Positions 23,254-39,466 of a DNA stretch of 64,000 bases are shown here, one piece after another. A program made the position numbers and the translations under genes. Source of the DNA: Litorilituus sp. (GTDB taxonomy: Bacteria > Pseudomonadota > Gammaproteobacteria > Enterobacterales > Alteromonadaceae); the NCBI GenBank assembly GCA_030754235.1, contig JASMAS010000070.1, forward strand, positions 62,001-126,000, in the 5' to 3' direction. How positions within the stretch are numbered: position 1 is the first letter of the stretch; every line of letters begins with the position of its first letter. The notes under the pieces are model-generated. The model was not told the DNA's origin and did no database searches. It saw only the letters and a program-made list of their open reading frames with translations.

Positions 23254-23883
23254 TTGCCTTCTACAACTATCCATTTAAGTAAAGCCACGTTCACTATTAG
23301 TGCTCCTGACATACGCAAACTCCCTAAAGATTCAGGTGTTGAAGTTGCCTTTGCCGGTCGTTCTAACGCGGGAAAGTCAAGTGCATTAAATACACTAACC
23401 AAGCAAAAAAGTTTAGCTCGAACCAGTAAAACTCCTGGCCGTACTCAACTTATTAACGTTTTTGAAATAGCGCCTGATAAGCGCCTCGTGGATTTACCCG
23501 GCTATGGCTTTGCCAAAGTGCCTTTAGAAATGAAAAAAAAGTGGCAAAAAGCCTTAGGTGAATATTTAGAAAAACGCGAAAGTCTCAAAGGTTTGGTGGT
23601 ATTAATGGACATTAGACACCCATTGAAAGATTTAGACTTAGATCTTATTGAATGGGCTGTTGATAGTGAATTGCCTGTACTAGCACTACTAACCAAAGCG
23701 GATAAGCTTTCTCAAGGTAAGCGCAGCGCCGAAGTATTAAAAGTGAAGAAGCATCTTTCACAACTTAATGGCGATATTAACGTACAAGCCTTTTCTTCTT
23801 TAAAACGTTCGGGTGCAGAGCAAGCAGAAGCACTCATTTGCAATTGGTTTGAACAAGAAACAACAAACGAAGAAGACACATAA
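23254..23883 (+). CDS. engB: Ribosome-biogenesis GTPase EngB/YsxC (YihA)
   Basis: A 209-residue GTPase needed for late large-ribosomal-subunit assembly. All G motifs are visible: G1 [10 protein letters not shown]2 TPGRTQ, G3 DLPGYG, G4 TKAD, and the FSS G5 region. It is very close to E. coli YihA throughout. The start is TTG 23254: the protein then begins [24 protein letters not shown], just as expected, and no ATG fits. The rare start codon and the weak ribosome site suggest low expression. A convergent small-RNA-like element starts right after it. Confidence 0.95.
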
Positions 23884-23937: not shown

Positions 23938-24046
23938 AAAAAAGCCGATGATATAGTGGTCATCGGCGTGTTAGCTATGGGGAAAGCTAGAATAAAAATT
24001 ATTACAATAAGTGTTCGCTAAGGAACAAATGAATTATAGAGCAAGA
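23938..24046 (-). ncRNA. Candidate small RNA, copy A (Spot 42 position)
   Basis: A roughly 100-nt element on the minus strand ends in a hairpin GCCGATGA/TCATCGGC (8 bp) and six Ts (complement of 23938-23943). It shares blocks with a second copy at 39124-39236: TTGCTCTAT near the 5' end, GTTCCT, TTGTAATAATT, ATTCTAGCTTTCC, TAGCTAAC, then GCCGAT-loop-ATCGGC-T6. The TAGCT/AGCTA pair just before the terminator forms a second small hairpin. The spacers differ, so conservation is in patches, as in a structured or base-pairing RNA. It converges on engB, the position and orientation of spf (Spot 42) in E. coli. Promoter not clear. Confidence 0.6.
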
Positions 24047-24120
24047 ACTCTACTCTTGTAAAGTAAAAATAGTATAAAAACTCTATTTATATTGATTTTT
24101 TTCTACTGGTGTCATTGTTT

Positions 24121-24144
24121 AATTTGTGGATCTTCATACATTAT
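24121..24144. repeat. Left arm of a 24-bp inverted repeat
   Basis: The sequence starting AATTTGTGGATCTTCA recurs in reverse orientation at 25989-26012: the first 16 bases are identical and 22 of 24 overall. The two arms bracket 1.9 kb containing only a secreted hydrolase gene. No transposase and no clear target-site duplication were seen. Confidence 0.7.
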
Positions 24145-24652
24145 CGGGAACGCGTCACCCGATGAGAAATTTAACATTTTCATAACAAACCATATCAGGG
24201 TGCTATTAGCCATTGATGTGAATCGATCAGACTAACCCATACTCAACTAGAACTGACAGGCTCTTAGATGCTAGAGGCAAACGCTCGTCATACATTTGCA
24301 ATGACGGCTTAGAGAGCTTATTGCAGACATTAAGCTTTTTTGAAGACATGATTTTATTTGAGGTAACATTAACTAAAATTTTATTATCACTTGCGAGGCA
24401 GGTTTAAGCTCATTATAGCCAGTGGGTATCCACCTCTAAACGCTAATTTTGCCACTTTCAAGATATTACGCAATTGAGGTAAAGTCGAAATTTTGATTAG
24501 ATTTTGTATAGCTAACGATCTTCTTTTAAGCTTCAGTTTATTTGTCTTAAAGCTGCTATCAAACTTAATAATCATGACTTTTGGCACCTATATATACAAT
24601 TTATCCTATATATACTGTTTCTGCATTTTCTTATTTCAAAAGGATAGTAAAC
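24145..24652. other. Intergenic stretch before the hydrolase gene
   Basis: About 500 bp inside the inverted repeat have no supported gene. There are small hairpins, such as CGTCAT/ATGACG around 24288-24308, and a direct repeat CCTATATATAC near 24587 and 24604, just upstream of the hydrolase, which may belong to its promoter. Nothing else was recognised. Confidence 0.35.
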
Positions 24653-25690
24653 ATGGACAGATTAATTAAAAAATTCTCAATCGTGTTATTTGTTTTAGCA
24701 TGGGTGTTAATCGGTAAAGTAGCCAGTGCAACTGAATCTAGCCAGCAGCATGAAAGTAATGTTCAAGTTAAACATATCGACATGTATGATGAAAAGCGTC
24801 AACGTCCCGTAAAAATTACCGTTTGGTTTCCAGCTGCACATGACTGCTCAGATGCTATTTTATGTTTAGCTGTCAATACTAAGCTAGATCAAGGAGCTGT
24901 TTTCTCTCATGGTGCGATGGGGGCTGCTAGAGGGTATAACTGGATCGGTTATGCTCTGGCTTCTCAAGGAATTGTTACCGTAGGCTTGAACCATTATGGT
25001 GAGTCTTGGGTATACGGTCAGGAAACCATTGATATGAGCGCAGTCCTGCGTTTCTGGGAACGTCCTCGCGATGTTACCTTCGTACTTAATCAGCTAAGTC
25101 AAAACTTTATTAAATCAGGCGTTAATAGACGTATATTTAACAGGAGTATGGACTGGACTAATGTTACAGCCATTGGTCATTCATCAGGTGGAGCCACAGT
25201 TGCCGCGTTAGCTGGAAGTAAACTGGAACTGATTAAGGCACAAAAATATTGCGCTACTCCCGCATCTAAAGGAGATAAAAGTTGCGGTTATATGAAACAC
25301 CAATTAGCCGCAGCAAAAGAGGGTTATAACCCCATTGAATCTTTTCAAGACAAACGAATTAAGCGCATGATTGCGATGGATCCTGCATTAGGTCATGTTA
25401 CAAATGAGAATAGTTTAAAGAGCATTGAAATTCCTGTTTTAGTCATCGGATCAAAACAAAATGATTTTTTAACTTATGATACTCACGCTGGTTATTACGC
25501 GAAAAATATTCCTCAAGCTCAAAATGTTGTGTTGGACAATGGTGAAGGCCATTTTGTTTACCTAGACAAATGTGACCATTCCTATAAGGCAATTGGTGTA
25601 TCTATATGTACTGACCGTGCAGGTATCGACAGGAGTGAGGTACACAAGCGTATATACCCACATTTGTTTGGATTTATTTACGGGAACTAA
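24653..25690 (+). CDS. Secreted alpha/beta hydrolase (dienelactone hydrolase/PAF-AH-like)
   Basis: A 345-residue exported hydrolase. Signal peptide: MDRLIKKFSIVLFVLAWVLI to about ASA. Catalytic elements: nucleophile elbow GHSSGG with Ser177, a later acidic region IAMDPALGH, and the C-terminal histidine in GEGHFVYLD. The VWFPA...DQGAVFSHG pattern resembles predicted dienelactone hydrolases and platelet-activating-factor acetylhydrolase-like esterases. An upstream extension of the frame to 24581 was rejected because ATG 24653 has AAAGGAT 9 bases upstream and opens directly into the signal peptide. It is the only gene between the two arms of an inverted repeat. The substrate is unknown. Confidence 0.8.
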   Translation: MDRLIKKFSIVLFVLAWVLIGKVASATESSQQHESNVQVKHIDMYDEKRQRPVKITVWFPAAHDCSDAILCLAVNTKLDQGAVFSHGAMGAARGYNWIGYALASQGIVTVGLNHYGESWVYGQETIDMSAVLRFWERPRDVTFVLNQLSQNFIKSGVNRRIFNRSMDWTNVTAIGHSSGGATVAALAGSKLELIKAQKYCATPASKGDKSCGYMKHQLAAAKEGYNPIESFQDKRIKRMIAMDPALGHVTNENSLKSIEIPVLVIGSKQNDFLTYDTHAGYYAKNIPQAQNVVLDNGEGHFVYLDKCDHSYKAIGVSICTDRAGIDRSEVHKRIYPHLFGFIYGN

Positions 25691-26064
25691 CAGAGAAAAC
25701 AACTAAGCGGTCTAATTTTTACGATGAATGACCGCATTGTCGATAAACGCTCTTAAAATATTTTTCATCTACGGCCCTCTTCTCACTTTAAGCAGACAAA
25801 TAATTTTAATTCTTTTTTAAATGAACCCAATATGTCACTATTGGCCTGATAATGACGAGTTTATTGCTGTCTAAGCCCCAGTTTATTTTCTAACTAGTTT
25901 TGAAGTTTTTTACGGCTTTTGACGCAATATATTTCATAAATTTTCTTCCAATTAGCTACAGCCAAGGAATTACCATTCAAGAATTCTCATAATTTGTGAA
26001 GATCCACAAATTTCTAAAGTAGCTTCTTTTGTGAGAAAGTGCTTTAAACTGATGGATGAAGTAA
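25691..26064. other. Intergenic region holding the right inverted-repeat arm
   Basis: No gene is supported in these 374 bp. The right arm of the inverted repeat is at 25989-26012, close to the following gene. No terminator is evident after the hydrolase. Confidence 0.35.
25989..26012. repeat. Right arm of the 24-bp inverted repeat
   Basis: The reverse complement of 24121-24144, 22 of 24 bases. This arm is also itself a palindrome: AATTTGTG and CACAAATT flank AAGATC (25991-26012). A regulator binding site repeated at both ends is an alternative to a mobile-element terminus. Confidence 0.7.
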
Positions 26065-27153
26065 ATGAAAATTGATCAAGAATTACTTGATAAAGTTGAA
26101 TCGAAATTAAATAAACAAAATGCATTATTTGCTGCTTTAGGGGCTGCATTTTGGACTACACCTGCCATAATTCTTTGGTTTTTTGTATATTCGTATAACC
26201 CTAACTTTGGTTCAATAATGTTATTGCTTAACGGTTTTTTAATCGGTTTGGTGATACGCATTCATGGTCAAGGAATGAAACCTTTATTCTCTGTAATTGC
26301 CTTTATTACACATACTTGGATTGTATTCATTGCATTTGATTTTGGTATTGTTCTTTCTGGCACCACTTGGGCAATTTTTTTGTTTGGTTTATACGCAACG
26401 GGGGCTGGTGTGGCAATGAAAATTGCCCGTGTTGGAGTGCCTTTTGAGGAGCATAGGGCTTATGATTATTTAAACTCAACACAAACTCATATCAGTAATA
26501 AAAAAATAAAGAACAGGTGGTTTACTGCTTTTTCGGTATTGATTTTAACTGCTAGCGTTTCAACTTTTATAGCCTCAATTAGCATCGTTTTTTTTAGTGA
26601 ATATCAAGCTAAAAATAAGCAGTTGGTTCAAGATCAAAAACTTAGGCAACTGGCACATAATAAAGAGATAGATATCACTCCTCAAGGGCTAGAGCATAGA
26701 TCTACTAAAGAGATATTAATATATTCGTATGCATACCATACAGGTTTGCTTTTTAATAAATTAGGCAATATCAGTCAATCATTTCCTCGTTCAGAATACA
26801 AAGCAAAAACTATTTTAAAATATTTAATTAAGTACCGTGACAATGCTAGAGCTAGATTCATTCTCGGTTTTTTGATGAGTAACCCAGAAGGTCAATCATT
26901 ACTAACTGAAGCAGTAGATCAGGGAGATGAATATGCGAAAATTTACTCTGCTGTTGATTATGGTTGTTACACTAATACTGACTTGGCGATAAAACAATTA
27001 AATATACTGCGTAAACTATTTCGCGAAGAGTCTCTTCATGAAGAGATAGATTCGATTCTTTATATTGGATTTAAAGATATATGTAGTGATCTTGAAGAGC
27101 CTGAGTACCTGTTAAGTTATGTACTTAGTTATAAAGATAAACCAGCTTTATAG
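26065..27153 (+). CDS. Hypothetical multi-pass membrane protein
   Basis: A 362-residue protein that I do not recognise. The first 180 residues hold about five hydrophobic helices (such as LFAALGAAFWTTPAIILWFF, IMLLLNGFLIGLVIRI, and WFTAFSVLILTASVSTFIA). The remaining C-terminal half is soluble and helical, with a region LKYLIKYRDNARARFILGFL... that resembles TPR/Sel1-type repeats without clear motif matches. ATG 26065; ribosome site weak (GATGAAG). The frame is intact. No operon partners. Low-GC composition like the surrounding accessory genes. Confidence 0.6.
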   Translation: MKIDQELLDKVESKLNKQNALFAALGAAFWTTPAIILWFFVYSYNPNFGSIMLLLNGFLIGLVIRIHGQGMKPLFSVIAFITHTWIVFIAFDFGIVLSGTTWAIFLFGLYATGAGVAMKIARVGVPFEEHRAYDYLNSTQTHISNKKIKNRWFTAFSVLILTASVSTFIASISIVFFSEYQAKNKQLVQDQKLRQLAHNKEIDITPQGLEHRSTKEILIYSYAYHTGLLFNKLGNISQSFPRSEYKAKTILKYLIKYRDNARARFILGFLMSNPEGQSLLTEAVDQGDEYAKIYSAVDYGCYTNTDLAIKQLNILRKLFREESLHEEIDSILYIGFKDICSDLEEPEYLLSYVLSYKDKPAL

Positions 27154-27477
27154 CACCTTAGTTGTTGCCTGCATATTTTGAAAAGAGTTAGGTCAAAAGT
27201 TAGCATAGCTCAACAGCAACAACGAGAACTGATAGCTAAAGGTTTGCTAGCAGAGTTTAGTCATTTAATACGAGTGTTTTTTCCGTGTTATTTTGTCGCA
27301 TAAGAACGTTTACCGGACAATTATTTGTTTATACGACATATACTACACACTAACTTTGTACGCTACTGCCTTTATTTTCTAACGATTCGTGAAAAGCTCT
27401 GCCTTGTATAAATACCCAACAAATCGCTGCAAAATCAAGCTCGAAAGATCAACAGACCCTAATATTCAATAACTTGT
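27154..27477. other. Intergenic region with a short residual frame
   Basis: After the stop at 27151-27153 the same frame stays open to TAA 27301-27303 (about 49 codons, Gln- and Leu-rich, including a TTG at 27178). No family was recognised and there is no good ribosome site; it could be a decayed C-terminal extension of the membrane protein or chance. No RNA gene or terminator was seen. Confidence 0.3.
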
Positions 27478-27867
27478 TTATTGTTTCGACGGCTGTTCAA
27501 GCTTCGCTACAAGTTTTTCCACAACTAACTCAACTCGCTTACTTTCTCTTAGCACTGACTGTCTATTCATTTCCATAAAAGTCCACATTTTCAACGCTAT
27601 TTGCAACATAGTTGAAAACAAAAAGACTACTGCCCAATGCATCTTATGCATTTGTGTACCTTCAACAAAGAAAAATTGATAACCAGACCAGAACATAACG
27701 ACAGTCAAAACAAAAGTAAATATTCCAACAATAATCATCCATCGCCCCAGTGAGCCTTTAAAAGCATTACCCAACAAGCCAAAGATTCCAGGTTCATGAG
27801 CCAAAATATCATCTATTTTTGCGGCGTCACTTTCTAACTCTTTTCTAATTTTTTCATCAATATTCAT
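27478..27867 (-). CDS. DUF6768-type small membrane protein, sigma-factor partner
   Basis: A 129-residue protein with an N-terminal soluble part (IDEKIRKELESDAAKIDDIL), two membrane helices (WMIIVGIFTFVLTVVMFWSGY and MHWAVVFLFSTMLQIAL) and a charged tail. The pattern fits DUF6768, a family I associate with genes directly after ECF sigma factors. It may act as an anti-sigma-like membrane regulator, but no zinc-binding anti-sigma motif is present. I chose ATG 27867 (AAGGA 9 bases upstream) over GTG 27873, which overlaps the sigma-factor stop but has its ribosome site too close. Confidence 0.7.
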   Translation of the reverse strand: MNIDEKIRKELESDAAKIDDILAHEPGIFGLLGNAFKGSLGRWMIIVGIFTFVLTVVMFWSGYQFFFVEGTQMHKMHWAVVFLFSTMLQIALKMWTFMEMNRQSVLRESKRVELVVEKLVAKLEQPSKQ

Positions 27868-27872
27868 CGTCA

Positions 27873-28391
27873 CTATTCCTTCAATGTAAATTTATTTTTT
27901 AAAAACTGCCGTGCACGGTTTAAGCGTGATTTAACAGTGCCAATAGGTACTTCAACAACAATGGCAATTTCGGCGAGTGTCATTTGCTCTAAATAAAACA
28001 AATATACAGCTTGGCGATCTATAGTAGGTAAACAGTCAATAAGTGACAACAAGTCACTATGGTCTATTTCACAAGTAACGGCCACATCAACTTTATCAGT
28101 ATTAAAATCAAGCACATCATTGTTTACCTTTTGCAATAAATCTAAGGTTTGCCAACGAACAAGCTGATAAATCCAACTTTTGAATGCTCTGGGATCATTA
28201 AGTGATTTAATCGACTTAGCCATTTTTAACCAACTATTTTGAACAGCATCATGAGCCATCTGTTCGTGAGCACAGATTTTGAAAGAAAAACGTAGTAAGG
28301 AGCTATGAAAATGACGGCATATTTGATCAAATGCCTTTACACTACCCATTTGCATGTCAACCACCAACATATCTAACTTAGCCTTTTCCAT
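27873..28391 (-). CDS. ECF-family RNA polymerase sigma factor
   Basis: A 172-residue sigma-70 family protein of ECF type. Region 2: FDQICRHFHSSLLRFSFKIC...AHDAVQNSWLKMAKSIKSL...FKSWIYQLVRWQTLD. Region 4: IDRQAVYLFYLEQMTLAEIAIVVEVPIGTVKSRLNRARQFLK, with a normal helix-turn-helix. Start placed at ATG 28391; a longer frame to 28433 adds an atypical N-terminus. It is followed at once by the DUF6768 gene, forming a two-gene operon. The stimulus is unknown. Confidence 0.9.
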   Translation of the reverse strand: MEKAKLDMLVVDMQMGSVKAFDQICRHFHSSLLRFSFKICAHEQMAHDAVQNSWLKMAKSIKSLNDPRAFKSWIYQLVRWQTLDLLQKVNNDVLDFNTDKVDVAVTCEIDHSDLLSLIDCLPTIDRQAVYLFYLEQMTLAEIAIVVEVPIGTVKSRLNRARQFLKNKFTLKE

Positions 28392-28888
28392 TATTACTCT
28401 AGTTTCCGTTTCTAAAATTTGTGTACATTGCAAAGACGATTGATAAACGCAAAAGGTTCACAAAAATAATGAAATAGCGTAAAAATAATCATGCTAGTTC
28501 GTAGCGTTAATATATATTCTTTGTTTTAGCTCATTAAAATAAGCTGCCTAAACATGAGAACAGTCACAAACATTATGCGTAATCACATCTTTTCACTTCC
28601 CGAGAGTTTTTGTCATCTGTTGAGAATTCAATCACTGATTTTATAGGCTTACATGAGCCAAGATCGAGTTCCTCATTAACCACGACCTTTTACACATTCA
28701 GGCCAACATGCATTGATGTTAAAGATTAAGTTCAAAACTCATATTTGTACCTATAATCATAAAAGACAATTTAAAGTCTATAGCGCTGATTAACAAAATA
28801 GCATGACTAGGCTGCATTGCTAGCGTCGCGTTCATCAAGCAGTTAATACTTACAAAGTGGGTACATAAAAATTCTGTAAGATCTAGAC
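28392..28888. other. Intergenic region, nothing recognised
   Basis: About 500 bp between the sigma-factor promoter side and the end of the TonB receptor gene. I found no coding frame, repeat or RNA signature. It should contain the sigma operon promoter, possibly autoregulated, but no ECF-type promoter could be read with confidence. Confidence 0.35.
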
Positions 28889-30886
28889 TCAGCGATTAAA
28901 CTGGTAACGAAAGCCTGCATTAACAGTAAAACCATCATTTCTTGACCAAATATCGGTAGTCCACCGACCACTCGGTGCTTGTTCAGGTAACACTAAAGGG
29001 TTTTCCTTGGTTTGCCGAACATTTAACAAATTTTCAGCGTTAACAAAAAAGCTTATTTTCCCTACAGTTATTTGCCCTAATAGCCCCAAGTGCCAATAAG
29101 GCTTACTTCGCTGACGATAGGGATTTTTTTCAAGATACTGTGTTCCTGTATAATAAGCTTCAAACCCTAACAAATGGCTACCATGTTCTTCCCACATCAC
29201 CACAAATCCAGCAGAATGTTGTGGCGTAAGTGTTAAAGGTACTCGGCGAAAACTCGGGTTATCTTCTTTAGTGGCATCTGTATATAAGTAACTACCCGTA
29301 AATTTTATATCTTGCCAACGATAACGTAACAATAATTCCGCACCACTAATTTCACTTTCGCCAACAGCATTAACAATACGTACTTGCTTGTTCGAAATAC
29401 CATTGCCCCCCTCAATAACGGTTAGTTCTGTTACATTATCAATACTTGATGAAAATAATGTTATGCTAGATTCTATGCTACCGAACATATAACCAATATC
29501 TATAGACGCTGTAGATGCTCGCTCTTCATTAATATTCTCCAGTGCTTCAAGCTGAGATAAACCCGCTTCATCAATATCTTCAATAAATGGGCTGGGTGCG
29601 AAAAAACCCTGTCCATATGCCCCTCTAACAATCCAATTTTCAGGGCGGTATAACAATGAAAATCTTGGGCTTACTTGAGTACCGTATTCACTATGCCAGT
29701 CAGTACGAACACTAAACGACATGGAAATATCTTCACTTGCTTCATAATCTAACTGCGAAAATAGCCCCGGTACTTGGTAAGCGTAATTAAATTCAGAAAA
29801 GGTGCCAGAATCGAATTTTTCAGATTGAAGTGCTACCCCAACTAGCCATGCTGTTTTATCTGAATATCCTGATAAACTAGATTCTATTAGATAACTTTTA
29901 TGACTATCATCCTCTTGAACACTACCGTATTCATGCTCGTGATCTTGATTCATTGCTGAGCCACGGACATTAATATTCATCATCTCTGCTAATGATTGGT
30001 CATATATAAAGCCAACATCAGTTCTGAATGTATCTTGAATTTGAGAATATGTACTTCCATTTGGCATTATTGCATTATCTAAAGTGCCACCATTTCTTTT
30101 TTCTGTCATAGCACCAACAGTAACGTAAAGGTTGGCACCCTTGTCATTTTGCCAATAGAAACGAGGACGAACACTGGTCCTTTCGTATCCTGCCACATCA
30201 AGCCAACCATCATCATCTAAATCTTGCTCTTCTTGATGATGAATGCCCGTTGTGATTGACGCGCTTAAAGCGCTAGTTAAAGGTGATGCAAAATATGAAG
30301 TAATATCTTGTCCATTTTTGGAGGTAACATTAACTAACACTTCTCCTTCATATTCATTAACGGGGGTTCGTGAAATCAGATTTATGACCCCACCAAGTGC
30401 AGAGCCACCATAAAGAGAAGAGGCAGACCCTTTAATTATTTCTACATTTGCTAGGTCTGTCGGTGGTATTTGCATCAAACCAATTGAAGCTGTTTGGCCT
30501 CCGTATAAAGGTAGGCCATCACTTAACAGCTGTGTATAACGTCCGTATAGTCCTTGTAAGCGAATATTAGAACTACCTAACGCTGGCGAGGTGGTTTGCA
30601 CTCTGACACCACCCGTTTCAGCCACTAGCATAGAGATATTTCCGGGGCGCATTAGTGCTTTTTCTTGAATTTCTTCGCCGTTGATAATTTCGGTTCGCGT
30701 AGCCGACTCGGTAACAATACGCCCTAAACGAGAAGCCCTTACTTGAATTCTTTCAATATTTTTATCGCTATGTGTATGCTGTTCTTGTTCTTCGTGGTGA
30801 TCATGGTCATTTTTATTTTCGTTAGCAGAGCTAAACGCGGGTATTAACAGTATTGCTACTGCTATTGTTAAATACTTTTGAAACAT
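28889..30886 (-). CDS. TonB-dependent receptor with His-rich N-terminus
   Basis: A 665-residue outer-membrane transporter. After a signal peptide (MFQKYLTIAVAILLIPAFSSA) comes a His/Asp/Glu-rich stretch NENKNDHDHHEEQEQHTHSD, then the plug domain (about residues 45-170: ...LLSDGLPLYGG..., SSLYGGSALGGVINLISRTP) and a beta-barrel ending in ...FTVNAGFRYQFNR, with a final aromatic/charged pattern as is normal for barrels. The His-rich lead is seen in metal-linked receptors, so copper, zinc or a metallophore is a reasonable guess. ATG 30886 has GAGGTA 4 bases upstream; a longer frame to 30922 lacks one. The Cys-rich exported protein gene lies 100 bp upstream on the same strand. Confidence 0.88.
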   Translation of the reverse strand: MFQKYLTIAVAILLIPAFSSANENKNDHDHHEEQEQHTHSDKNIERIQVRASRLGRIVTESATRTEIINGEEIQEKALMRPGNISMLVAETGGVRVQTTSPALGSSNIRLQGLYGRYTQLLSDGLPLYGGQTASIGLMQIPPTDLANVEIIKGSASSLYGGSALGGVINLISRTPVNEYEGEVLVNVTSKNGQDITSYFASPLTSALSASITTGIHHQEEQDLDDDGWLDVAGYERTSVRPRFYWQNDKGANLYVTVGAMTEKRNGGTLDNAIMPNGSTYSQIQDTFRTDVGFIYDQSLAEMMNINVRGSAMNQDHEHEYGSVQEDDSHKSYLIESSLSGYSDKTAWLVGVALQSEKFDSGTFSEFNYAYQVPGLFSQLDYEASEDISMSFSVRTDWHSEYGTQVSPRFSLLYRPENWIVRGAYGQGFFAPSPFIEDIDEAGLSQLEALENINEERASTASIDIGYMFGSIESSITLFSSSIDNVTELTVIEGGNGISNKQVRIVNAVGESEISGAELLLRYRWQDIKFTGSYLYTDATKEDNPSFRRVPLTLTPQHSAGFVVMWEEHGSHLLGFEAYYTGTQYLEKNPYRQRSKPYWHLGLLGQITVGKISFFVNAENLLNVRQTKENPLVLPEQAPSGRWTTDIWSRNDGFTVNAGFRYQFNR

Positions 30887-30986
30887 TTTTACCTCAGGTA
30901 TTACTTGGTAATAATTCAGCACAACAGCGCTGATTAATTTAATAAATGATAAGTTGTAGACAATTTAAAGCGATCGTTCTAACGGC

Positions 30987-31361
30987 TTATGCGATAAAAA
31001 TGGGAGGACGATAGAGTAAAGCGGAAAAATTTTTTGGTTGTTTAAAGAGTTGAGTATCAACTATATGACTTGCAGTAGGTGCCTTAATTAAATTAACTTC
31101 AGCCGTAAAATAGACAAATGATGAACATACATTTGCACTGCAACTACACCCAATATCACAGCAATCAATGCCACAGCAATCTTGATGGTTACCCGTATCA
31201 AGTGCCTTTGAATTGTAATGCTGAACTAGAACCGTTGGGTTATGAGAAAGAGAATTAACTGAGGTTTCGCACGACATAGAAGCATTAAAAGCGATTGCTT
31301 GTCCAATAAAGGAAATAAGCATTACAGCTATAACTAATACCCTTGAAACGGCTTTAAGCAT
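30987..31361 (-). CDS. Exported Cys-rich small protein, probable metal handling
   Basis: A 124-residue protein with a signal peptide (MLKAVSRVLVIAVMLISFIGQAIA split near AFN) and a dense cysteine cluster DCCGIDCCDIGCSCSANVC (eight Cys within 19 residues). The C-terminus LYRPPIFIA is similar in style to small copper-operon proteins (DUF2946/CopL-like), though I cannot assign the family. Start ATG 31361 has GAGG 7 bases upstream. It precedes the His-rich TonB receptor and has a near-consensus promoter with an overlapping palindrome. A role in binding or sensing metal is inferred from the cysteines and neighbour. Confidence 0.7.
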   Translation of the reverse strand: MLKAVSRVLVIAVMLISFIGQAIAFNASMSCETSVNSLSHNPTVLVQHYNSKALDTGNHQDCCGIDCCDIGCSCSANVCSSFVYFTAEVNLIKAPTASHIVDTQLFKQPKNFSALLYRPPIFIA

Positions 31362-31389
31362 ATAAACCTCTATATTCAATACGCGTAAC

Positions 31390-31426
31390 ATTATAAGAGT
31401 TTATTTATAACATGTGAACAATCACA
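31390..31426 (-). promoter_or_regulatory. Promoter with overlapping operator for the Cys-rich/TonB unit
   Basis: On the minus strand, -35 TTCACA (31418-31413), a 17-bp spacer and -10 TATAAT (31395-31390) form a near-consensus sigma-70 promoter with its start expected near 31383, 22 bp before the Cys-rich gene. A perfect 14-bp palindrome TGTGA-TTGT-TCACA (31426-31413) covers the -35 hexamer. Its half-sites resemble those of CRP/FNR but the N4 spacing is wrong for CRP, so a repressor of the downstream metal-related genes is possible. Confidence 0.68.
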
Positions 31427-31735
31427 GGCTAGTTTATTCTAGTTTTGAGCTCAATTTACGCTATAATTTTTGAGGGTTGTCCTTTAATTATAAGGCCGAT
31501 AATATTTAAGGTTATTAACTTTTTAAGTAGAATAAATCACAGCAACGTACAGTAAGATACCATGGTGTTGAGATAGATGACACACTTGAACTCTCTGGTT
31601 ACACTGATATATAGTCAAAACGATTAAAGTAAACATGACGCTTTTTAACCTGAGGCAGTTATTAGAGCCCCCCAAAAAAGAGTACTTGTTTTAAATTAGA
31701 TAATAGTAATTATATTAACTGAATAGAGAATACTA

Positions 31736-33214
31736 ATGAAAACACTCTTCAAAATTATAGGTTATGTGGTTACTTTATTGATTATTATCGGTTTCTACCG
31801 AGCTAACACCTTATATGTTGACACTCAATATTACCCAGATAATGATACAAAAAAAGTTGCAGTAAATATTAATAAGGCGATCAATAATTTTTCAAAGGCC
31901 ATTAAAATACCTACTGTATCAAAAGATTATCCTACACCAGTGACACCTGAGCCATTTTTAGCTTTTCACCAACATTTAGCGGACAGTTTTCCTATCGTGC
32001 ACAATTTTGCACATAGGAAAATTATTAATCAATACAGTTTGGTCTATAAATTTGCTGGTACTGATGATAGCTTAAAACCTATTCTATATATGGGCCATAT
32101 GGATGTTGTTCCTATTGATGAGGATACCCTTAATAAATGGAGCTATGCGCCTTTTTCAGGAACGGTTGCACAGGGGAACATTTGGGGTCGTGGGGCAATT
32201 GATGACAAATCAACGGTTATGGCATTAATGGAAGCGATGGAAATAAGTCTATCGAAAGGCGACGCTCCAAAGCGAACCCTTTACTTTGCCTTTGGTCATG
32301 ATGAAGAGGTTGGAGGAAGCCAAGGGGCGAAGAAAATAGCAGAGTACTTTAAACAACAAGGCGTAAATTTCGAATTTGTACTCGATGAAGGTGGCTTGAT
32401 CACAGAGGATATGATTAGTATTGTTGACCAACCCTTGGCGATTATTGGTATCGCTGAAAAAGGCTTTATGAATATTCGCTTAACTGCCGAACGGCCAGGA
32501 GGTCATTCGTCAATGCCGCCTGAAAATACAGGTCCGGGCATATTAGCACAAGCCATTGTTAAACTTGAGCAAAAAAAATTTCCTACTACCGCAAAATACA
32601 CTAACATCACGTTTGATGCCATTGGTAGTCATTCTGATTTAACGACGCGCTTTGTGATGGCAAATCAATGGTTAACAGAGCCAATGATCATTAATGAGAT
32701 GTTGAACGAACAAAGAACAGCAGCAGGCATCCGTACAACCACAGCAGTAACAATGTTGAAAGGTAGCAGTAAATCAAATATATTGCCAACCAAAGCAAGT
32801 GCAGTGGTTAATTTTAGAATTTTACCCGGAGAGACAACAGAGACGGTATTAGAATATGTAAAAGCAATCATTAACGATGACCGTATTAGCTATGAAGTAT
32901 TCATGGCCAATAACCCATCAAAAGTGTCGAGTACTAACAGCATTGGTTATAAATTGATCTCACAAACCATACGTGAATTTGCGAATGACGCTTTAGTTGC
33001 GCCATATTTAGTTATGGGCGGCACAGACTCCAAACATTTCTATTCATTAACCAATGCTGTTTATCGATTTTTGATGATACGCGTTACCCCAAAAACGATG
33101 AGCCTAATACATGGAATAGATGAACACATCAGCATTGAAAACTATGTGATGAGCATTCAGTTTTTTCATGAGTTATTAAGAAAATCTGCATTTGATAACG
33201 AAGCACCAAAATAG
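31736..33214 (+). CDS. M20-family metallopeptidase (carboxypeptidase PM20D1-like)
   Basis: A 492-residue zinc peptidase with an N-terminal membrane anchor (LFKIIGYVVTLLIIIGFY). Metal-site motifs of the M20 family: MGHMDVVP (His and the following Asp), GRGAIDDKS, FAFGHDEEVGG (the acid base pair Glu-Glu), and a C-terminal GGTDSKHF with the last metal His. The dimerisation lid lies in between. The NKWSYAPFSG pattern and length resemble the PM20D1/CPS1-type carboxypeptidases. Location: inner membrane, catalytic part likely outside the cytoplasm. Alone, with AGAGAA before ATG 31736. Substrate unknown. Confidence 0.87.
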   Translation: MKTLFKIIGYVVTLLIIIGFYRANTLYVDTQYYPDNDTKKVAVNINKAINNFSKAIKIPTVSKDYPTPVTPEPFLAFHQHLADSFPIVHNFAHRKIINQYSLVYKFAGTDDSLKPILYMGHMDVVPIDEDTLNKWSYAPFSGTVAQGNIWGRGAIDDKSTVMALMEAMEISLSKGDAPKRTLYFAFGHDEEVGGSQGAKKIAEYFKQQGVNFEFVLDEGGLITEDMISIVDQPLAIIGIAEKGFMNIRLTAERPGGHSSMPPENTGPGILAQAIVKLEQKKFPTTAKYTNITFDAIGSHSDLTTRFVMANQWLTEPMIINEMLNEQRTAAGIRTTTAVTMLKGSSKSNILPTKASAVVNFRILPGETTETVLEYVKAIINDDRISYEVFMANNPSKVSSTNSIGYKLISQTIREFANDALVAPYLVMGGTDSKHFYSLTNAVYRFLMIRVTPKTMSLIHGIDEHISIENYVMSIQFFHELLRKSAFDNEAPK

Positions 33215-33474
33215 ACTTTATCGTCAACGATATCAACGCGCCATTACCACGTATCAGAAACAAGATTTTCACTCAATAATTGACAAAGTATAACACTGTG
33301 ATAGTTCCGATAGTGGTAGAAGTATTAAGATTAAATTAACCTGATGTGATAGTTAAAGTAGCTATTTAGCCTTATTGCAACCGCTAGTTGACAAATTAAC
33401 AAGCTGACTTGCTAGCCTGCAACTACCTGATTTTCTATGCTTAGCACTCAACAACAGATGAAGGAATTAACGTT

Positions 33475-34455
33475 ATGATATTAGCTGCAAAGATTGTCAA
33501 CTTAAGAAAAAACTCTGGCTGGTCGCAAGAAGAGTTAGCTGAAAAAATGAATGTTTCTAGGCAGTCAGTCTCAAAATGGGAAAGCACGAGTAGCATACCC
33601 GATTTGAATAGAATAATTATGTTGGCAAAGATTTTTGATACTTCAACTGACTACCTACTTAAAGACGAAAACGAATCATTTGATTCCCAAGATGAAAGTC
33701 AAGAGCCAGGAGCCGTTCAAATTAGCTTAGAACAAGCAGTGCAGTATGTTGCAAATAAAGTAGAATTGTCAGCTTTAATTACCAAGGGGGTTATACTTTG
33801 TGTTTGTTCGGTAATACCACTGTTTTTCTTTTTGGCAATGGCTGAAACAAATAAATTGAATCTAACCAATGATATTGCCGCCGCGATAGGCATTGTATGT
33901 ATTTTAATAATGGTATCGATTGGTACAAGCTTTTTTATCAAAACAAACCAATATGATACTAATACCGATGCCATAGATAATGAACCATTTGAATTAACCT
34001 ACGGTGTACACAGTATTTTTCAAGAAAAATTACAAAAATTTAGAGTTACCTATAATCGAAGATTATCTCTGGGGATATTTATCTTCACCATCAGTTTTGT
34101 ACCGCTGATGTTTGCTAGCGTGTTTTTAGGTACTTCAGACATTATCTTAATGATGTTAATTGTTTTAATTCTCATGATAGCAGCAGGAATCTATATTGTT
34201 GCACCGGTCTGTGCAAAGTACGACGCCTACAACAATATTCTAAAAGATAGCAACCTAGAGACACCGACCAGTAAACGCACCAAACGCGCTGAAAAACTTG
34301 CTGCATTTTACTGGCCTTTACTAACAGCGATATTTATTGGTTGGAGTTTATGGACTATGGACTGGGGCGTAACCTGGATTATATGGCCTGTGGGTGCTGT
34401 GCTTTTCGTGGCACTGGTTGGATTGATGGAATTGCTAAATAAAGAAGAACCTTGA
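33475..34455 (+). CDS. XRE-family regulator with membrane domain
   Basis: A 326-residue protein. The first 65 residues are a Cro/CI helix-turn-helix (LAAKIVNLRKNSGWSQEELAEK, VSRQSVSKWES), then a linker and four or five membrane helices (such as LITKGVILCVCSVIPLFFFLAM, IAAAIGIVCILIMVSIGTSFF and ILMMLIVLILMIAAGIYIVA), ending with a pair of helices near the C-terminus. Such one-component, membrane-anchored regulators often respond to envelope signals, but no target is visible. AAGGAAT lies 8 bases before ATG 33475. Common in low-GC Gram-positives, so a transferred origin is possible. Confidence 0.82.
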   Translation: MILAAKIVNLRKNSGWSQEELAEKMNVSRQSVSKWESTSSIPDLNRIIMLAKIFDTSTDYLLKDENESFDSQDESQEPGAVQISLEQAVQYVANKVELSALITKGVILCVCSVIPLFFFLAMAETNKLNLTNDIAAAIGIVCILIMVSIGTSFFIKTNQYDTNTDAIDNEPFELTYGVHSIFQEKLQKFRVTYNRRLSLGIFIFTISFVPLMFASVFLGTSDIILMMLIVLILMIAAGIYIVAPVCAKYDAYNNILKDSNLETPTSKRTKRAEKLAAFYWPLLTAIFIGWSLWTMDWGVTWIIWPVGAVLFVALVGLMELLNKEEP

Positions 34456-34573
34456 AAATCAACGCTAGTCTTCATTAGCAAGAGATAAAAATGACTGGGG
34501 TCAGCGACAAAAAATATCTAATCTGCCCCCTTTACTGTCTCGAATGTAGCAGTGGTTATGGCTTAGTGCAGCT

Positions 34574-35647
34574 TTAGACATCAGCACATGCTACAATTGC
34601 TACGCCTTGTCGATAACCTAAGCCCCCATTGCCATGTATCATGCCAAGTTTTTCCTGGCCACCACATAAACGATGGTACATCAGCACAAGCGCATTAAGT
34701 GCTGGGTTATTCCATGCTGCTTTACCCAAGTTCATGCCACCAGTGATCGTTATACTATGTTCAGCAAGAAACTCTGGAATATCCTCTAGTGCATCAACCA
34801 AACCACTTACCAACAAAAAAGCCATAGGTACAACGGGATAGCAGGTATAAGTTTCTAATAAAGCATTTCCTGCTTTAAACTGGTGTACAAAGTCGATATT
34901 CGCTTCGTTACAGGCTTGTTGATAGGCTTTATGTAAATGCTCATATTGGGCAATATCCGTTAAAAATTCATGTCCATCTCCTTCTAGACGACTTAATCCC
35001 ACTGCTTTGACCTTTAACCATTGGCTTTTGTCGACGCCCAATTGTTCGGCAATATCTTCACGTGTTATCAGTAGTCGACCAGAGAAGTCCACCATAGGGT
35101 TTGCACAATCAATCCCTCTAAACAAGTCTGTTATCGGTTTATGCCAGCGCAAATCAGGTAAAAAATCTGGGCTATAGCGATCTGACAACGCGTTGCAAAA
35201 ACTTATTTTATAATTTTCAAACAGTGCACTAGAACATTTTTTAAATTGTTGTTTGGTAATAGCATGATGTTCACTAAAAGCACGTGCTAAATCAGTATAA
35301 GCTTGCGTTAATGGGTAACTTTGACCATAAACGGCCATTTTACTTAACCGCTCTTCCCTGCTATAGCCCGTTTTAATGTGATCTTCACCACTGATCACAA
35401 CGGCAGACGCTCCATTTTCTATTAATTCTTTGGCTTTAGCCAAAGCTTCAATGGGTGCGCAGCCACTTCTAAAGTGATTTTCTTTTTCTGGGCTGTGCCA
35501 GTCTGCCTTTAAAGGTTCAATAACTAAATATTTAGGTACTACACCAAGTTGCAGTAATTGAAATTCTAGTAATAAAACCTGCTCAAGGCTTCCCTCGTTA
35601 TCTTGCTTTTTAGCTGCTCCAATAATGAATGCTGATGGTATTTTCAC
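34574..35647 (-). CDS. Thiolase-superfamily protein, function unknown
   Basis: A 357-residue protein with traces of a thiolase fold. C63 in RSGCAPIEALAKAKELIENGASAVVISGEDHI sits where the catalytic cysteine of thiolases lies (CASGLxAI...AGxADVVIAGG). The C-terminal MIHGNGGLGYRQGVAIV supplies a His (H338) as in SCP-x-type thiolases, whose motif is HGxGG. The second catalytic cysteine of classic thiolases is missing. The overall length is short for a degradative thiolase. No fatty acid genes adjoin it. Call limited to superfamily level. Confidence 0.62.
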   Translation of the reverse strand: MKIPSAFIIGAAKKQDNEGSLEQVLLLEFQLLQLGVVPKYLVIEPLKADWHSPEKENHFRSGCAPIEALAKAKELIENGASAVVISGEDHIKTGYSREERLSKMAVYGQSYPLTQAYTDLARAFSEHHAITKQQFKKCSSALFENYKISFCNALSDRYSPDFLPDLRWHKPITDLFRGIDCANPMVDFSGRLLITREDIAEQLGVDKSQWLKVKAVGLSRLEGDGHEFLTDIAQYEHLHKAYQQACNEANIDFVHQFKAGNALLETYTCYPVVPMAFLLVSGLVDALEDIPEFLAEHSITITGGMNLGKAAWNNPALNALVLMYHRLCGGQEKLGMIHGNGGLGYRQGVAIVACADV

Positions 35648-36000
35648 AAGTCATTTAATCCAATAAAAAATAGACATCAACTTTATGTTATTTAATCAAA
35701 ACTAAAAAGTAGAATATTTTCTTGGTTGAAAAAAATAGGCTTAAATACATTATCTGCTTACAATATTCCTCGGTTATTTAGTTATATTTGAAATATTTTA
35801 ATTTTCTATTATAATCGGGGAGCTGAGAAATCAATGATTGTTAAAAAATATATTGATTTCCACTTATTGGAAATATTTGCACCAGTGGGACGGTAGCCTA
35901 ATGTTAGCAATATAGTTAAACACTATGTTGCACTATATGGCTCGCCTACTATAAAAGCACCTTTAGATATATCGGGCGAGTCTTAATCTGTGGAATAACC
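35648..36000. other. Intergenic region with an 8-bp hairpin
   Basis: Holds the presumed promoter of the thiolase-like gene and, at 35939-35946 / 35975-35982, GGCTCGCC pairing with GGCGAGTC (one G-T pair) around a 28-base loop. The hairpin ends 18 bases before a weak ATG at 36001. No riboswitch family was recognised. Confidence 0.4.
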
Positions 36001-36318
36001 ATGATAAAGACCAGTGTAAATAAGTTAAACATTAACATACCCCCTACCCAGTACAATCACGGCTTATTTACTTGCCTTTTTTTCCACTATGTAAAAATCA
36101 AGATTACTACCCTGCTAGTAGAGTATTTTTATTGCCAATTGCAATGTGCCAGACAACTTAACACCCACTCAATAAAAAATATTTTAAATCAATTTATACT
36201 CAAGTGGATATCGCATAGCATCGCTGCTGCGCAGCAAGTGCAATCTCCAGACGTCAGCGGCTACCCTGATGGCTTGAAAAATTGGAAAACACCTATCGCG
36301 GGGAAATTGATGATGTAA
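36001..36318 (+). CDS. Doubtful 105-codon frame, possible hypothetical protein
   Basis: The frame encodes 105 residues without a known domain; its composition (many Asn, Gln, Ile, Lys and a hydrophobic HGLFTCLFFHYVKIKITTLL) is not typical of the neighbouring proteins. The ribosome site is weak (TGGAAT 9 bases upstream). It lies in a 730-bp gap, 62 bp before the response-regulator gene. I keep it only as a possibility. Confidence 0.18.
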   Translation: MIKTSVNKLNINIPPTQYNHGLFTCLFFHYVKIKITTLLVEYFYCQLQCARQLNTHSIKNILNQFILKWISHSIAAAQQVQSPDVSGYPDGLKNWKTPIAGKLMM

Positions 36319-36379
36319 ATACTGAACAGTAGATTACAACAAATCAATATTAATAATGGAGTTACCGTAAAAATCACCT

Positions 36380-36754
36380 ATGAGAAAAAGTATTTTAATA
36401 ATCGACAATCTTCAACTTTCCATTAATGCAATGTCTTCGGTATTAACGGATTGGGGATATGAGGTAGATGGTTTTTTAGATCCTGTAGAAGCATTATCGG
36501 CACTAGTTGAAAAGCAATACTATATGGTATTTAGCGAATTAAAAATGCCAAGTTTGGATGGTTATAAATTACTTTATAGATTTAACAAAGAAAAGCCTGA
36601 GCAAAAATGTTGCCTTGTTACTGGAGCATTGGATGAAGAAGAGTTACTTAAAAAAACCATACGCCTACCTAACGTCAAAGGATTAATAAAAAAACCAATA
36701 AAAATTAAAGACTTGCATATAGCCCTAGAAGGCAAAAATCAAAAAAGCCTTTAA
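36380..36754 (+). CDS. Stand-alone receiver domain with altered phosphorylation site
   Basis: A 124-residue CheY-like receiver domain without an output domain. At the phosphoacceptor position the usual Asp is replaced by Glu: SELKMPSLDG (E53). The acidic pair is D9-N10 instead of Asp-Asp, while the switch Thr (T81) and the conserved Lys before Pro (K105) remain. The Glu may mimic phosphorylation, giving a constitutively active or phosphorylation-independent domain. It is convergent with the chemoreceptor gene. GGAG lies 18 bases before ATG 36380, so the start is not certain. Confidence 0.82.
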   Translation: MRKSILIIDNLQLSINAMSSVLTDWGYEVDGFLDPVEALSALVEKQYYMVFSELKMPSLDGYKLLYRFNKEKPEQKCCLVTGALDEEELLKKTIRLPNVKGLIKKPIKIKDLHIALEGKNQKSL

Positions 36755-36796
36755 TTAGTTAAAAACAAATGAGTTCTAGTTATTTTTCTACTTAGC

Positions 36797-38776
36797 TCAA
36801 ACCTTATATATACTAGCAATATCTTGCAACAAATTGGCTAGCTGCGCTTGCTCTTTAGCCGTAACCGCTATTTGGTTAGCACCAGTGGTTGTTTCCATAG
36901 ATTTTTGTTCAATATCAACAACATTTTTAGCAACATCTTGGGTTACAACAGATTGCTCTTCAATTGCCGTTGCAATTTGATCTGTCATCGAAAAAATAGT
37001 ACCTACCGAACTAGAAATATCATTTAACGCCAATTCAAGATCTTTTGAATTACTTACCGCATCAGCAGCTTTTTGCTGACTTGTTTCAATAACATTAAAT
37101 GCAGCAGCAGCATCTGTTTGCAGAGAGGAAATAAAGTTTTCAATTTCTGCTGTAGATTCTTGAGTACGTAGTGCTAAGGTTCTAACTTCATCAGCAACAA
37201 CAGCAAAGCCTCGTCCTTGCTCTCCCGCTCTTGCCGCTTCAATTGCTGCATTTAGAGCTAGTAAATTAGTTTGCTCTGCGACAGATTTAATCACATCAAC
37301 CACACTCGTAATGTTATTACTACTATCATGCAAACTATTAATTTTTTTTGCTAAACCATCAATCTCAGCGGCGAGATCTTCTATAGATTGATAAGACTGT
37401 TGCACGGTTTTTAGCCCATTAGTTGCTTTTTCATCAGCCTCTTGTGCTGACGTGGCTGTATTTTGAGTGTTCGTTGCCACTTCTTTTACTGTGGTAGATA
37501 ACTCTTCAATTGCGGTTGCGATTAAGCTGATGCCATCTTGCTGTTCAAATAACGATGTAGAGTTGTGTTCACAGGTTTGAGAAGTTTCTTCTGCCGCAGA
37601 AGCTAATGAAATACTTGATGATGATATATCTTTAATCACCTGCGAAAATTGAGCCAGTGTTTTATTTAAAGCAGTTGATATCTGTCCCAATTCATTCGTT
37701 CCCTCAAATGCGCCTTGCACGGTTAAATCATTTTGATCTCTTACTTGGGTCATCACCGTGGTCAGGTTATTTACCTGCCCTGTTAACTCCTTAATAGTGT
37801 AGAAGCTAGTAACAAAAGCGACTATGATTAATACGACACTACTTAGTAAATTAATAATAAGTGAATATAACGCACTCGCCTGTTTTTCTTCCACAAGCAA
37901 TATAATATCTTGACTCAATTGGTTTTCAATTTGTTTTAATTGTGCAATTCTGCCGGTTGCCTGTGCGAACCAGTATTCTGATTCAACATTAAAATCTGAT
38001 GCTTTATTTAATGCCACGTCTCGTAATTTTATTACTTCATTGACTGAGTTTGTCGTTAACTGTTGAACAAAATAGTTCTGATGATTACTGTTGGCAAATT
38101 GACTAAAGCTAGAAAAATAAGTATTTTGCTCGCTCATTAAGGTTATAAATTTTTCTAACATGCCTTCGGTGAATTTATTATTCGCAAAAGTATTACTTAA
38201 TACCGCGCGTTCAATACCGGCCCGCTCCTTGCCTTGTAAAAAACTATAATAAGCTACTATTTCTTTGGTGATAAACGCATCTGTGCTAATGTTGGTATTA
38301 ATGACTGCAACACTTAATAACAGCTTATTTAACTGGGTGTAATAATTTAATGCTTCAGGCAGTGAAATTGTCTGCGACATGACTTGCTGACGAATACGCT
38401 TAAGATCAGCCAGTTTCTGATAAATAGACGCATTCACGGCTTTTATTTTTTGTTGCTGAAAGTTATTTTCCTGCCAAAAAGCTGCTTGTTTTCTGCGTGT
38501 TGTGTCGGTATTTTTATGTTGTACAATTAGTTTTCCAGCAAAATTTTTCCCTTTTGAACCCAAATAGCCTGCGGTCATCCCTCGCTCTTTTTGCAGCTCA
38601 TGAACAAAATCATTATTTATAACAGAAAGCTGAGTTAAAGAAGAAATAGCAGACATCTCTTCATTTACCCTAATATTGTCAACAATCTCAGTAACAGTTA
38701 ACCAGAGAAAGCCTAACACCGGAAAAATTAATATAGTAAAAATTTTATTTTTAAATGAAAGGTTTGTAAAATCCAT
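36797..38776 (-). CDS. Methyl-accepting chemotaxis protein with NIT sensor
   Basis: A 659-residue chemoreceptor. N-terminal membrane helix ([20 protein letters not shown]), a periplasmic NIT-type domain (nitrate/nitrite sensing) beginning at [18 protein letters not shown], a second membrane helix ([21 protein letters not shown]), a short HAMP-like linker, and the cytoplasmic signalling domain with the hairpin tip [19 protein letters not shown] and [13 protein letters not shown]. Methylation helices flank the tip. No CheR-binding pentapeptide is visible at the end. ATG 38776; a ribosome site GGAGAT is 5 bases upstream. Sensing of nitrate or nitrite is inferred from the domain only. Confidence 0.9.
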
Positions 38777-39123
38777 GTAATCTCCATATATATCAATACC
38801 TTACTTTTGCAGAAAGTCTAATCAAAGCACTATAGCATTGATTTTAACTTATGAGTCCTAATATGCGTGTACTTCAGTTTTAACGCTGTGATCTGAATCA
38901 ATTTTAGTGCACAAAATATATAACCATCTCTAAAATAAGTGTGGCAGAGAAGTTAAGCCGTTAGACACCGAATTTATGTAAACTTCCTAAGTAACAAGCT
39001 AGGCATAATTTTTATAACTAAGGATGATATGAATAACAAACTATTGTAGTAACATCGTTAATGTCATTGAAACAGCCTGCGTAAATGTAACAAAAAAACG
39101 ATAAATATAATTAAATTCCGCGC
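38777..39123. other. Intergenic region upstream of the chemoreceptor
   Basis: This part of a 690-bp gap holds the chemoreceptor promoter region on the minus strand. No gene or repeat was recognised before the small-RNA-like element at 39124. Confidence 0.35.
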
Positions 39124-39236
39124 AAAAAAAAGCCGATATAATCATATCGGCACGTTAGCTACGAGGAAAGCTAGAATATTCAATTATTACAACAATCGCC
39201 CATATACAGGAACGAAACATTAGCATAGAGCAAAAG
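39124..39236 (-). ncRNA. Candidate small RNA, copy B
   Basis: The second copy of the element near 24 kb, again on the minus strand and about 100 nt long. It ends in GCCGATAT/ATATCGGC and eight Ts (complement of 39124-39131). The shared blocks TTGCTCTAT, GTTCCT, TTGTAATAATT, ATTCTAGCTTTCC and TAGCTAAC occur in the same order and spacing as in copy A. A candidate promoter on the minus strand is GTGACA, 17 bp, TAGAAC, which would start the RNA at the conserved TTGCTC. It is transcribed away from ubiE. No protein can be read through it. Confidence 0.6.
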
Positions 39237-39466
39237 TTCTAAAAAGGCAATCGCAAAATGTCACTTTATTACATATACGTTATTTAATTACATTAAGGCA
39301 GGTTTTCATAGAGTCTCATTTTAAAATTTGTCATTCAACTAAAATACATATCTTGCCCCACCAGCCTGTTTTATATCAACAAAAGCGCTGCTGATATTTG
39401 TTGATTAACTTCACATACAGTAAACTATGATCACTTTTACCATTTTCTATCATTAGCGAACTAAAG

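Follow-up and report, generated by a model that had tools for sequence, protein, structure and literature searches.

The RNA encoded by spf, Spot 42, is commonly regarded as an invariant part of its locus. What, then, is the small-RNA-like element that stands in the spf position of Litorilituus sp., and how does it relate to a second copy on the same contig? The window analyzed here is a stretch of 64,000 nucleotides (nt) from contig JASMAS010000070.1, and it holds both elements, termed copy A and copy B, on its minus strand. Our data make it probable that the two are paralogous, stand-alone genes for small RNAs (sRNAs) of about 92 nt, which would descend from an RNA gene adjacent to spf, be controlled by an operator, and act on messenger RNAs (mRNAs) through pairing of a C-rich loop. 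As read from the sequences, the genes have putative sigma-70-type promoters with a palindromic operator, three predicted hairpins with compensatory changes, and a terminator; throughout the clade, genes of the copy A type are linked to engB and genes of the copy B type to polA or ubiE.

Copy A (23938..24029, minus strand; predicted length about 92 nt) and copy B (39124..39216, minus strand; about 93 nt) reach 97.1 and 89.8 bits, respectively, with a covariance model, R1, that was built from 11 copies in six genomes and includes both of them. They lie about 15.2 kilobases (kb) apart and align over the entire predicted transcript, which confirms the original prediction of two minus-strand elements with shared, ordered blocks at a distance of 15 kb. 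The general plan of the RNA is a 5′ hairpin (consensus CGUUC...GAACG), the linker UUGUUGUAAUAAUU, a hairpin UAGCU-UUCCYCAU-AGCUA, and a GCCGAT terminator with a T-run. Copy A follows it with the 5′ hairpin GUUC/GAAC, the linker UUGUAAUAAUU, the hairpin UAGCU/AGCUA with the loop UUCCCCAU, and the terminator. Copy B has the same three hairpins, its 5′ stem being kept only through two G-U pairs. Each copy ends in a GCCGAT hairpin of its own, as had been noted before, with a stem of 8 pairs and a T-run (intrinsic terminator stems at 23944..23967 and 39132..39151, both on the minus strand). The 5′ ends are predicted and not mapped transcript starts. One of the blocks assigned to the element, TTGCTCTAT, is indeed shared by both copies, but it belongs to the promoter: it is the 3′ (right) half of the palindrome TAGAGYNNNNRCTCTA, which reaches into the −10 box, and therefore lies upstream of the predicted transcript, leaving an RNA of about 92 nt.

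Is this pair part of a family? The original prediction had suggested a duplicated regulatory RNA family and covariance searches of Rfam and of related genomes as a check. No Rfam family, RF00021 (Spot 42) included, reaches its cut-off at either window copy; the sub-threshold matches at both copies are FnrS, MicC, ncr1015, Qrr, rseX, and a plant snoRNA, with 14 to 23 bits. At E ≤ 0.01, R1 has matches in 70 of the 196 genomes of the window's family, spread over 22 of 52 genera. Of these genomes, 52 have two matches, 16 a single one, and 2 have three; the best copy outside the build scores 105.9 bits (E 1.4e-16 per genome). Some weak matches have to be treated with caution (in the following, G numbers denote genomes and L numbers fetched loci): those in G381, G392, and G441 (35 to 38 bits; L130, L131, L132) look spurious and that in G331 (39.8 bits; L118) probably is, while L104 and L121 (35 to 40 bits) as well as L123 (48.6 bits) and L133 (56.7 bits) retain family promoter elements and look real. 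Both-side changes were seen in 13 of 18 base pairs among 56 aligned matches, and 97.0% of the cells are paired versus 87.1% in shuffles, none of 500 shuffles being as high; these 56 rows were fitted to the R1 structure and include three or four probably spurious ones. Together, the spread of the matches and the covariation support the notion of a duplicated family. A strict pattern returned 53 stretches in named genomes, 52 of which come from Colwellia, Cognaticolwellia, Thalassotalea, Thalassomonas, Litorilituus, Colwelliaceae, or Alteromonadaceae and one from "Gammaproteobacteria bacterium 42_54_T18." A first, order-wide pattern search had been discarded because false positives abounded; within one genus, for example, 15 genomes matched through an unrelated TTCTAGCTTTTCTTTTAGCC stretch.

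Start-to-stop runs inside the RNAs are short, with a maximum of 19 codons among 51 copies, and differ between copies without any conserved frame; therefore, the statement that neither copy holds a reading frame stands. All 51 copies, which were chosen in part by this very motif, have a Y-rich hairpin loop with CCYC between AGC and GCU, followed by the terminator. A mobile or dispersed repeat without regulatory role might likewise produce one to three similar copies per genome and the tandem copies of G401 and G423. However, no genome has more than three matches, polA, engB, or ubiE is present in 28 of 32 copy-bearing loci, and promoters are conserved and pairs changed in a compensatory manner; a repeat of this kind is hardly conceivable. 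The tandem arrangements themselves are a triplication in G423 (L128, 4021-4636) and a duplication in G401 (L127, 4076-4781), each within a few hundred bases; in G423, the downstream palindrome is mostly lost in two of the three copies.

The promoter of copy A was found by a consensus scan at 24033..24062 (minus strand; −35 TTTACA, spacer 18, −10 TATAAT, 11/12). Upstream of copy B, a promoter-like sequence (TTGCCT, spacer 17, TATGCT; 39222..39250, minus strand) was read from the sequence; it is weaker than that of copy A and was not reported by the scan. The operator palindrome TAGAGTTCTTGCTCTA (24037..24052, minus strand) overlaps the −10 box of copy A, and its counterpart at copy B, TAGAACTTTTGCTCTA (39226..39241, minus strand), has 1 mismatch. 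The palindrome adjoins the −10 box in 43 of 44 sRNA promoters (at most 4 substitutions; L117 is the miss); in those 43, none of the ten fixed positions is conserved in fewer than 39. A second, upstream operator similar to TTAGAGYANNTACTTYAA is present in 21 of the 44 carrier promoters (at most 3 substitutions); window copy A lacks it and has kept the downstream palindrome alone. A further palindrome in the window's own genome (C110:31391) was dropped as an operator, as it lies within a hairpin stem, with a T-run nearby, upstream of a gene that is pheA-like by eye. The elements might also be untranslated leaders or attenuators of the next gene, and a chemotaxis-receptor-like gene does follow copy B on the same strand in the window, L096, and L101. 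Copy A, however, converges on engB, the downstream genes vary between genomes, and a terminator-like hairpin ends each window copy, and we regard leaders as very improbable.

The genomic neighborhood ties the family to the spf locus. Copy A converges on engB (yihA; 23254..23883, plus strand), the conserved neighbor of spf in E. coli, and copy B stands upstream of and back to back with the divergent ubiE (39467..40258, plus strand), both genes being named from sequence by eye and both arrangements being as originally described. The window shows the engB side alone, at copy A; polA of this genome is on another contig (C97). In E. coli (L142), the order is polA, spf, and converging yihA/engB, and the same order, polA-sRNA-engB, with orientations as in E. 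coli is found in G344, G401, and G442 (L126, L127, L129), where the sRNA lies between polA and engB and is co-oriented with polA, the position of Spot 42. These three relatives bear out the assignment of a copy to the spf position more strongly than could be known from the window. In L109, the order is polA-sRNA-open reading frame-engB. Of the forty loci fetched, 32 yielded a copy to our script, with a stray additional match in L096 and another in L124. Near the copies of these 32 loci are engB in 15, polA in 14, and ubiE in 4 (L096, L098, L099, L101), with overlaps; L102, L115, L116, and L128 are the four loci without any of the three genes. Most other loci have the copies split, one near engB (often with intervening genes) and the other near polA, whose place ubiE takes in the window's genus; for some copies (e.g., L036, L037) no polA, engB, or ubiE was seen nearby.

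Does the position make the copies Spot 42? Strongly diverged Spot 42 genes, that is, true spf orthologs, would account for the locus and the orientation and for an upstream box, described below, that most polA/ubiE-side copies share with spf at a similar distance. However, a covariance search with RF00021 at its gathering score gave no match in the window, in its own genome, or in L040, L041, L126, and L127, and R1 gives Spot 42 itself only 12.8 bits (L045) and 16.7 bits (L046). In addition, the Spot 42 5′ end GTAGGGTACAGAGG was found as an exact 14-mer in none of 42 carrier genomes (best R1 match of at least 52 bits), in 14 of 21 family genomes without an R1 match, and in 2 of 4 whose R1 matches are weak, in a search of 67 genomes of our choice that would miss one-mismatch variants. 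The kinship with Spot 42 that had been read from the TAGCT/AGCTA hairpin is thus unsupported. Moreover, as detailed below, spf coexists in five loci with a second RNA, and it is this second RNA that the core and operator of the copies match. We consider orthology with spf improbable. Judged by sequence, the copies are not Spot 42, but their tie to the spf locus is real, and their likely kin is a second sRNA beside spf rather than spf itself. Sub-threshold RF00021 matches in G295 (L048) and at L049 were rejected as terminator regions by eye. In a tree of EngB (45 rows, with some long outgroup branches), the 20 carriers form one clade (100/98), with G244 (L143) as its sister (99/96); the exact 14-mer is also absent from G244. 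Independently of this, shortened Spot 42-like genes with a GTAGGGTACAG start and a terminator within about 90 nt occur in several genera of the window's family (L146, L147, L150, L154, L164, L167), and the E. coli record L142 has a protein-coding gene, "spot 42 RNA, inhibition of DNA synthesis," annotated inside spf at 3519-3566.

The candidate ancestor came from a survey of the engB-side interval in 35 further genomes and E. coli, 36 loci in all, of which 21 have a recognizable spf. Five of these loci (L153, L163, L169, L170, L174) have a further RNA-like gene, the second RNA, after spf. It comprises a 5′ stem and the core TAGCTTCTCCCC, closed by GCTA/AGCT, with a terminator at the end. Since spf and this RNA occur together and in this order in all five loci, the second RNA is a separate gene. 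It is present without spf in L143, and in L145 it lies by engB, with the Spot 42 5′ end 7.6 kb further on and on the same strand. Throughout the 36 loci, the pattern of the core TAGCTTCTCCCC with a following T-run was found nowhere but at these seven sites. With no more than 1 mismatch allowed, the operator TTAGAGYANNTACTTYAA has six matches in this set, all within the engB-side interval: five at the second gene (L145, L153, L163, L169, L174) and one, in L159, at the matching place after spf. Core and place are thus common to the window family and the second RNA, and the operator is common to the clade and the second RNA. Second RNAs from the 18 sources searched gave no Rfam match at the cut-off. 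From these sequence features, the window copies look like descendants of the spf-adjacent second RNA.

A further link to spf is found upstream of the promoters. Among 29 spf promoters scored (all 21 recognizable in the survey plus those of 8 of 36 Vibrio-family loci), a box close to TGTAATNNNATTACA scores at least 10/12 in 19, 9/12 in 9, and 7/12 in L174, the 9/12 scores not being significant one by one; the best box starts at −56 to −60 from the spf +1 in 27 of the 29. Such promoters with the box at a near-constant distance come from different families (e.g., L142, L144, L150, L157, L162). The E. coli box TGAAAAAAAATTACA (L142) starts at −59 and is distinct from the site quoted for the cAMP receptor protein (CRP) at spf, TTTTGTGATGGCTATTAGAAAT (PMC3295665). 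In V. parahaemolyticus, the same letters are given at pgi as a putative HexR site, with the motif TGTAATTAAATTACA (PMC11906056). The HexR-like box of copy B, TGTAATTAAATAACG (10/12), is at 39278..39292 (minus strand); in most of the other polA/ubiE-side copies, the box is about 20 bp (base pairs) closer to the gene. Of the 44 sRNA promoters, 23 lack the second operator, and 19 of these have a box of at least 10/12, as have 4 of the 21 with the operator; window copy A, L098:4676, L100, and L115 account for the four of the 23 that fall short. In fifteen of those 19, the box lies at −59 to −61, counted from the first base of the hairpin and not from a mapped start. From these boxes, the polA/ubiE-side gene looks like a second RNA placed behind the upstream element of spf. 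A literature search found no paper that joins HexR and Spot 42 in this sense; the title matches were Neisseria papers.

Our model starts from a second small RNA of the polA-spf-engB interval, from which the family would descend. In the Colwellia-type clade, spf would have been lost and the second RNA duplicated, the polA-side copy carrying the upstream regulatory box of spf. More specifically, and only tentatively, we propose that Spot 42 was exchanged for its neighbor: a deletion of spf would have put the HexR-type box before the promoter of the second RNA, the chimera would have been duplicated, and the siblings would have split their inputs, with two TetR-type operators on the engB side and a HexR box and one operator on the polA/ubiE side. 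If true, the most familiar RNA of carbon control in enterobacteria would here be replaced by an RNA pair that senses sugar and lipid. The RNA may bind Hfq through its U-tail and the AAUAAU-type linker, and its exposed C-rich loop (UUYCCYC) may pair with purine-rich ribosome-binding sites (GRGGAA) and block translation, as modeled on VcdR. A repressor at TAGAGTNNNNACTCTA would switch transcription, a TetR-family protein (PF13972) with a similar site at its own gene being the best candidate, and the RNA would thus answer a metabolic, perhaps lipid-derived, signal, copy B being open in addition to HexR or a related regulator.

The TetR candidate derives from a similar site upstream of its gene in the window's own genome and in G134, where the gene lies beside one that is coaD-like by eye. 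The TetR gene (PF13972) is present in 20 of 20 genomes, and its upstream site scores 14 to 15 of 16 positions in 10 of 10 carriers, two of which had themselves suggested the candidate, with the gene flanks diverging. On this sequence evidence, TetR is the best regulator candidate in the clade but not an established regulator. A literature search on PhaD, of which the TetR is reminiscent, gave nothing useful.

Several observations weigh against parts of this account. The operator is absent from L143, the sister lineage, and poor in L170. R1 gives the distant second RNAs only 22 to 29 bits in five of seven cases and does not match the gene in the other two, L143 and L174; an unrelated terminator region (L049) reaches 27.9 bits. 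The scores of the second RNAs are no better than that of this region, and therefore, homology rests on locus, operator, and core motif and not on the model; a second covariance model with the distant RNAs was abandoned, as MAFFT misaligned their hairpins. The −10 box of window copy B is poor, and copy B may be weak. The loop motif helped to select the copies in which it is constant; of four R1 matches that were missed by the script but retain family promoter elements, L121, L123, and L133 have CCYC and L104 does not. The identity of the HexR-like box is uncertain, given that the Pseudomonas HexR site has another spacing (TTGTN7-8ACAA) and that RccR binds a similar 15-mer, TGTAGTAAAACTACA (PMC5489143). 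Finally, the operator is absent upstream of the TetR ortholog in 10 of 10 non-carriers (8 scored at most 12/16; 2 were judged by eye), and in outgroups the sites precede DUF1302, FadL-type, or acyl-CoA ligase genes instead.

The last point bears on the regulator. In the same RNA family, the operator might belong to a different lipid or carbon regulator in place of this TetR, or to several of them. This is a serious possibility, if not quite an even one. It would fit the non-carriers, whose TetR gene has no site, as well as operator-like sites away from TetR, upstream of DUF1302 genes in G254, G052, and G005 and directly before a FadL-type gene (PF03349) in G515; against it, the site before the TetR gene is kept in 10 of 10 carriers despite the diverging flanks. 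The palindrome lies about 240 to 310 nt upstream of the DUF1302 gene in three genera (center of L261, L263, L274) and may mark a lipid-linked regulon. In G482, a site is upstream of an AMP-binding acyl-CoA ligase-like gene, with a hairpin intervening. The other extra sites inspected (L264, L267, L272, L275) had no such neighbor by eye.

With descent from the second RNA as the preferred reading, a marine clade without the Spot 42 5′ end carries a mostly duplicated neighbor RNA, one copy type of which has an apparent part of the spf promoter, and the swap of one regulatory RNA for another becomes directly testable. The analysis provides a family, a covariance model, and an operator for an RNA of which VSsrna24, possibly a relative, had been the sole known representative, and it points to a HexR-like box that spf promoters share over a range from E. 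coli to the family of the window. In the literature searches made, no account of the Colwellia-type family or of an exchange of Spot 42 came up; papers on Colwellia small RNAs had nothing on this RNA, judged by their titles, and Spot 42, engB, and polA do not appear in the main text of a Shewanella sRNA paper (PMC5471319).

How does the family compare with known systems? It shares locus and orientation with Spot 42 (RF00021), an RNA that is repressed by CRP and pairs with mRNAs of sugar metabolism, and most polA/ubiE-side copies also have the upstream box; RNA sequence and structure differ, without a covariance match. Below threshold, FnrS (RF01796) is the top Rfam scorer at copy A with 20.6 bits and, with 22.7 bits, has the lowest E-value at copy B, largely through the terminator stem. 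It does not reach its gathering score of 60, and locus and core are unrelated. VcdR/VcdRP of Vibrio cholerae is described as pairing through four cytosines at translation initiation sites of sugar-uptake mRNAs, as located between vc2278 and vc2279, as encoding the protein VcdP, and as repressed by CRP (PMC8672173). Its C-rich stretch resembles that of the window family as a functional analogy only: as described, VcdRP is longer, encodes VcdP, whereas the window family has no conserved frame, and was dropped as kin for its different locus.

The closest parallel is VSsrna24, described as an RNA of about 60 nt encoded 262 nt downstream of spf, repressed by glucose independently of cAMP, and limited to Vibrionaceae (PMC3295665); it is also given as upregulated in V. 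cholerae under virulence-inducing conditions (PMC13250501). Like the second RNAs, it is encoded downstream of spf in the polA-engB interval, at the position of a second sRNA that five of the distant second RNAs hold. In the carriers, where spf was not found, the flanking genes alone can be compared. In our loci, genera g34 and g88 have a short RNA-like element after spf with the C-rich core TCTCTCCC and a terminator. We assume g34 to be Vibrio-like and g88 Aliivibrio-like. This element we take to be VSsrna24 from its position and size, not from comparison with the published VSsrna24 sequence; in g88, the core lies 281 to 293 nt after the spf T-run in five of six loci (the sixth T-run was unmatched), which fits the description. 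As a separate observation, 18 of 30 other Vibrio-family loci (L184, L185, L188, L191, L193, L194, L196-L207) have an operator like TTTAGAGTAAATACTTTAA after spf and then, about 190 to 340 nt after the spf start, a different RNA-like element with GCTTCTTGTTC (ACTTCTTGTTC in L207). In the VSsrna24-like element itself, the 5′ hairpin was not seen and the TAGAG operator is missing, its likeness to the window family being the C-rich core alone. VSsrna24 is about 60 nt long and coexists with spf, whereas the window family, of about 92 nt, is mostly duplicated and is found without spf.

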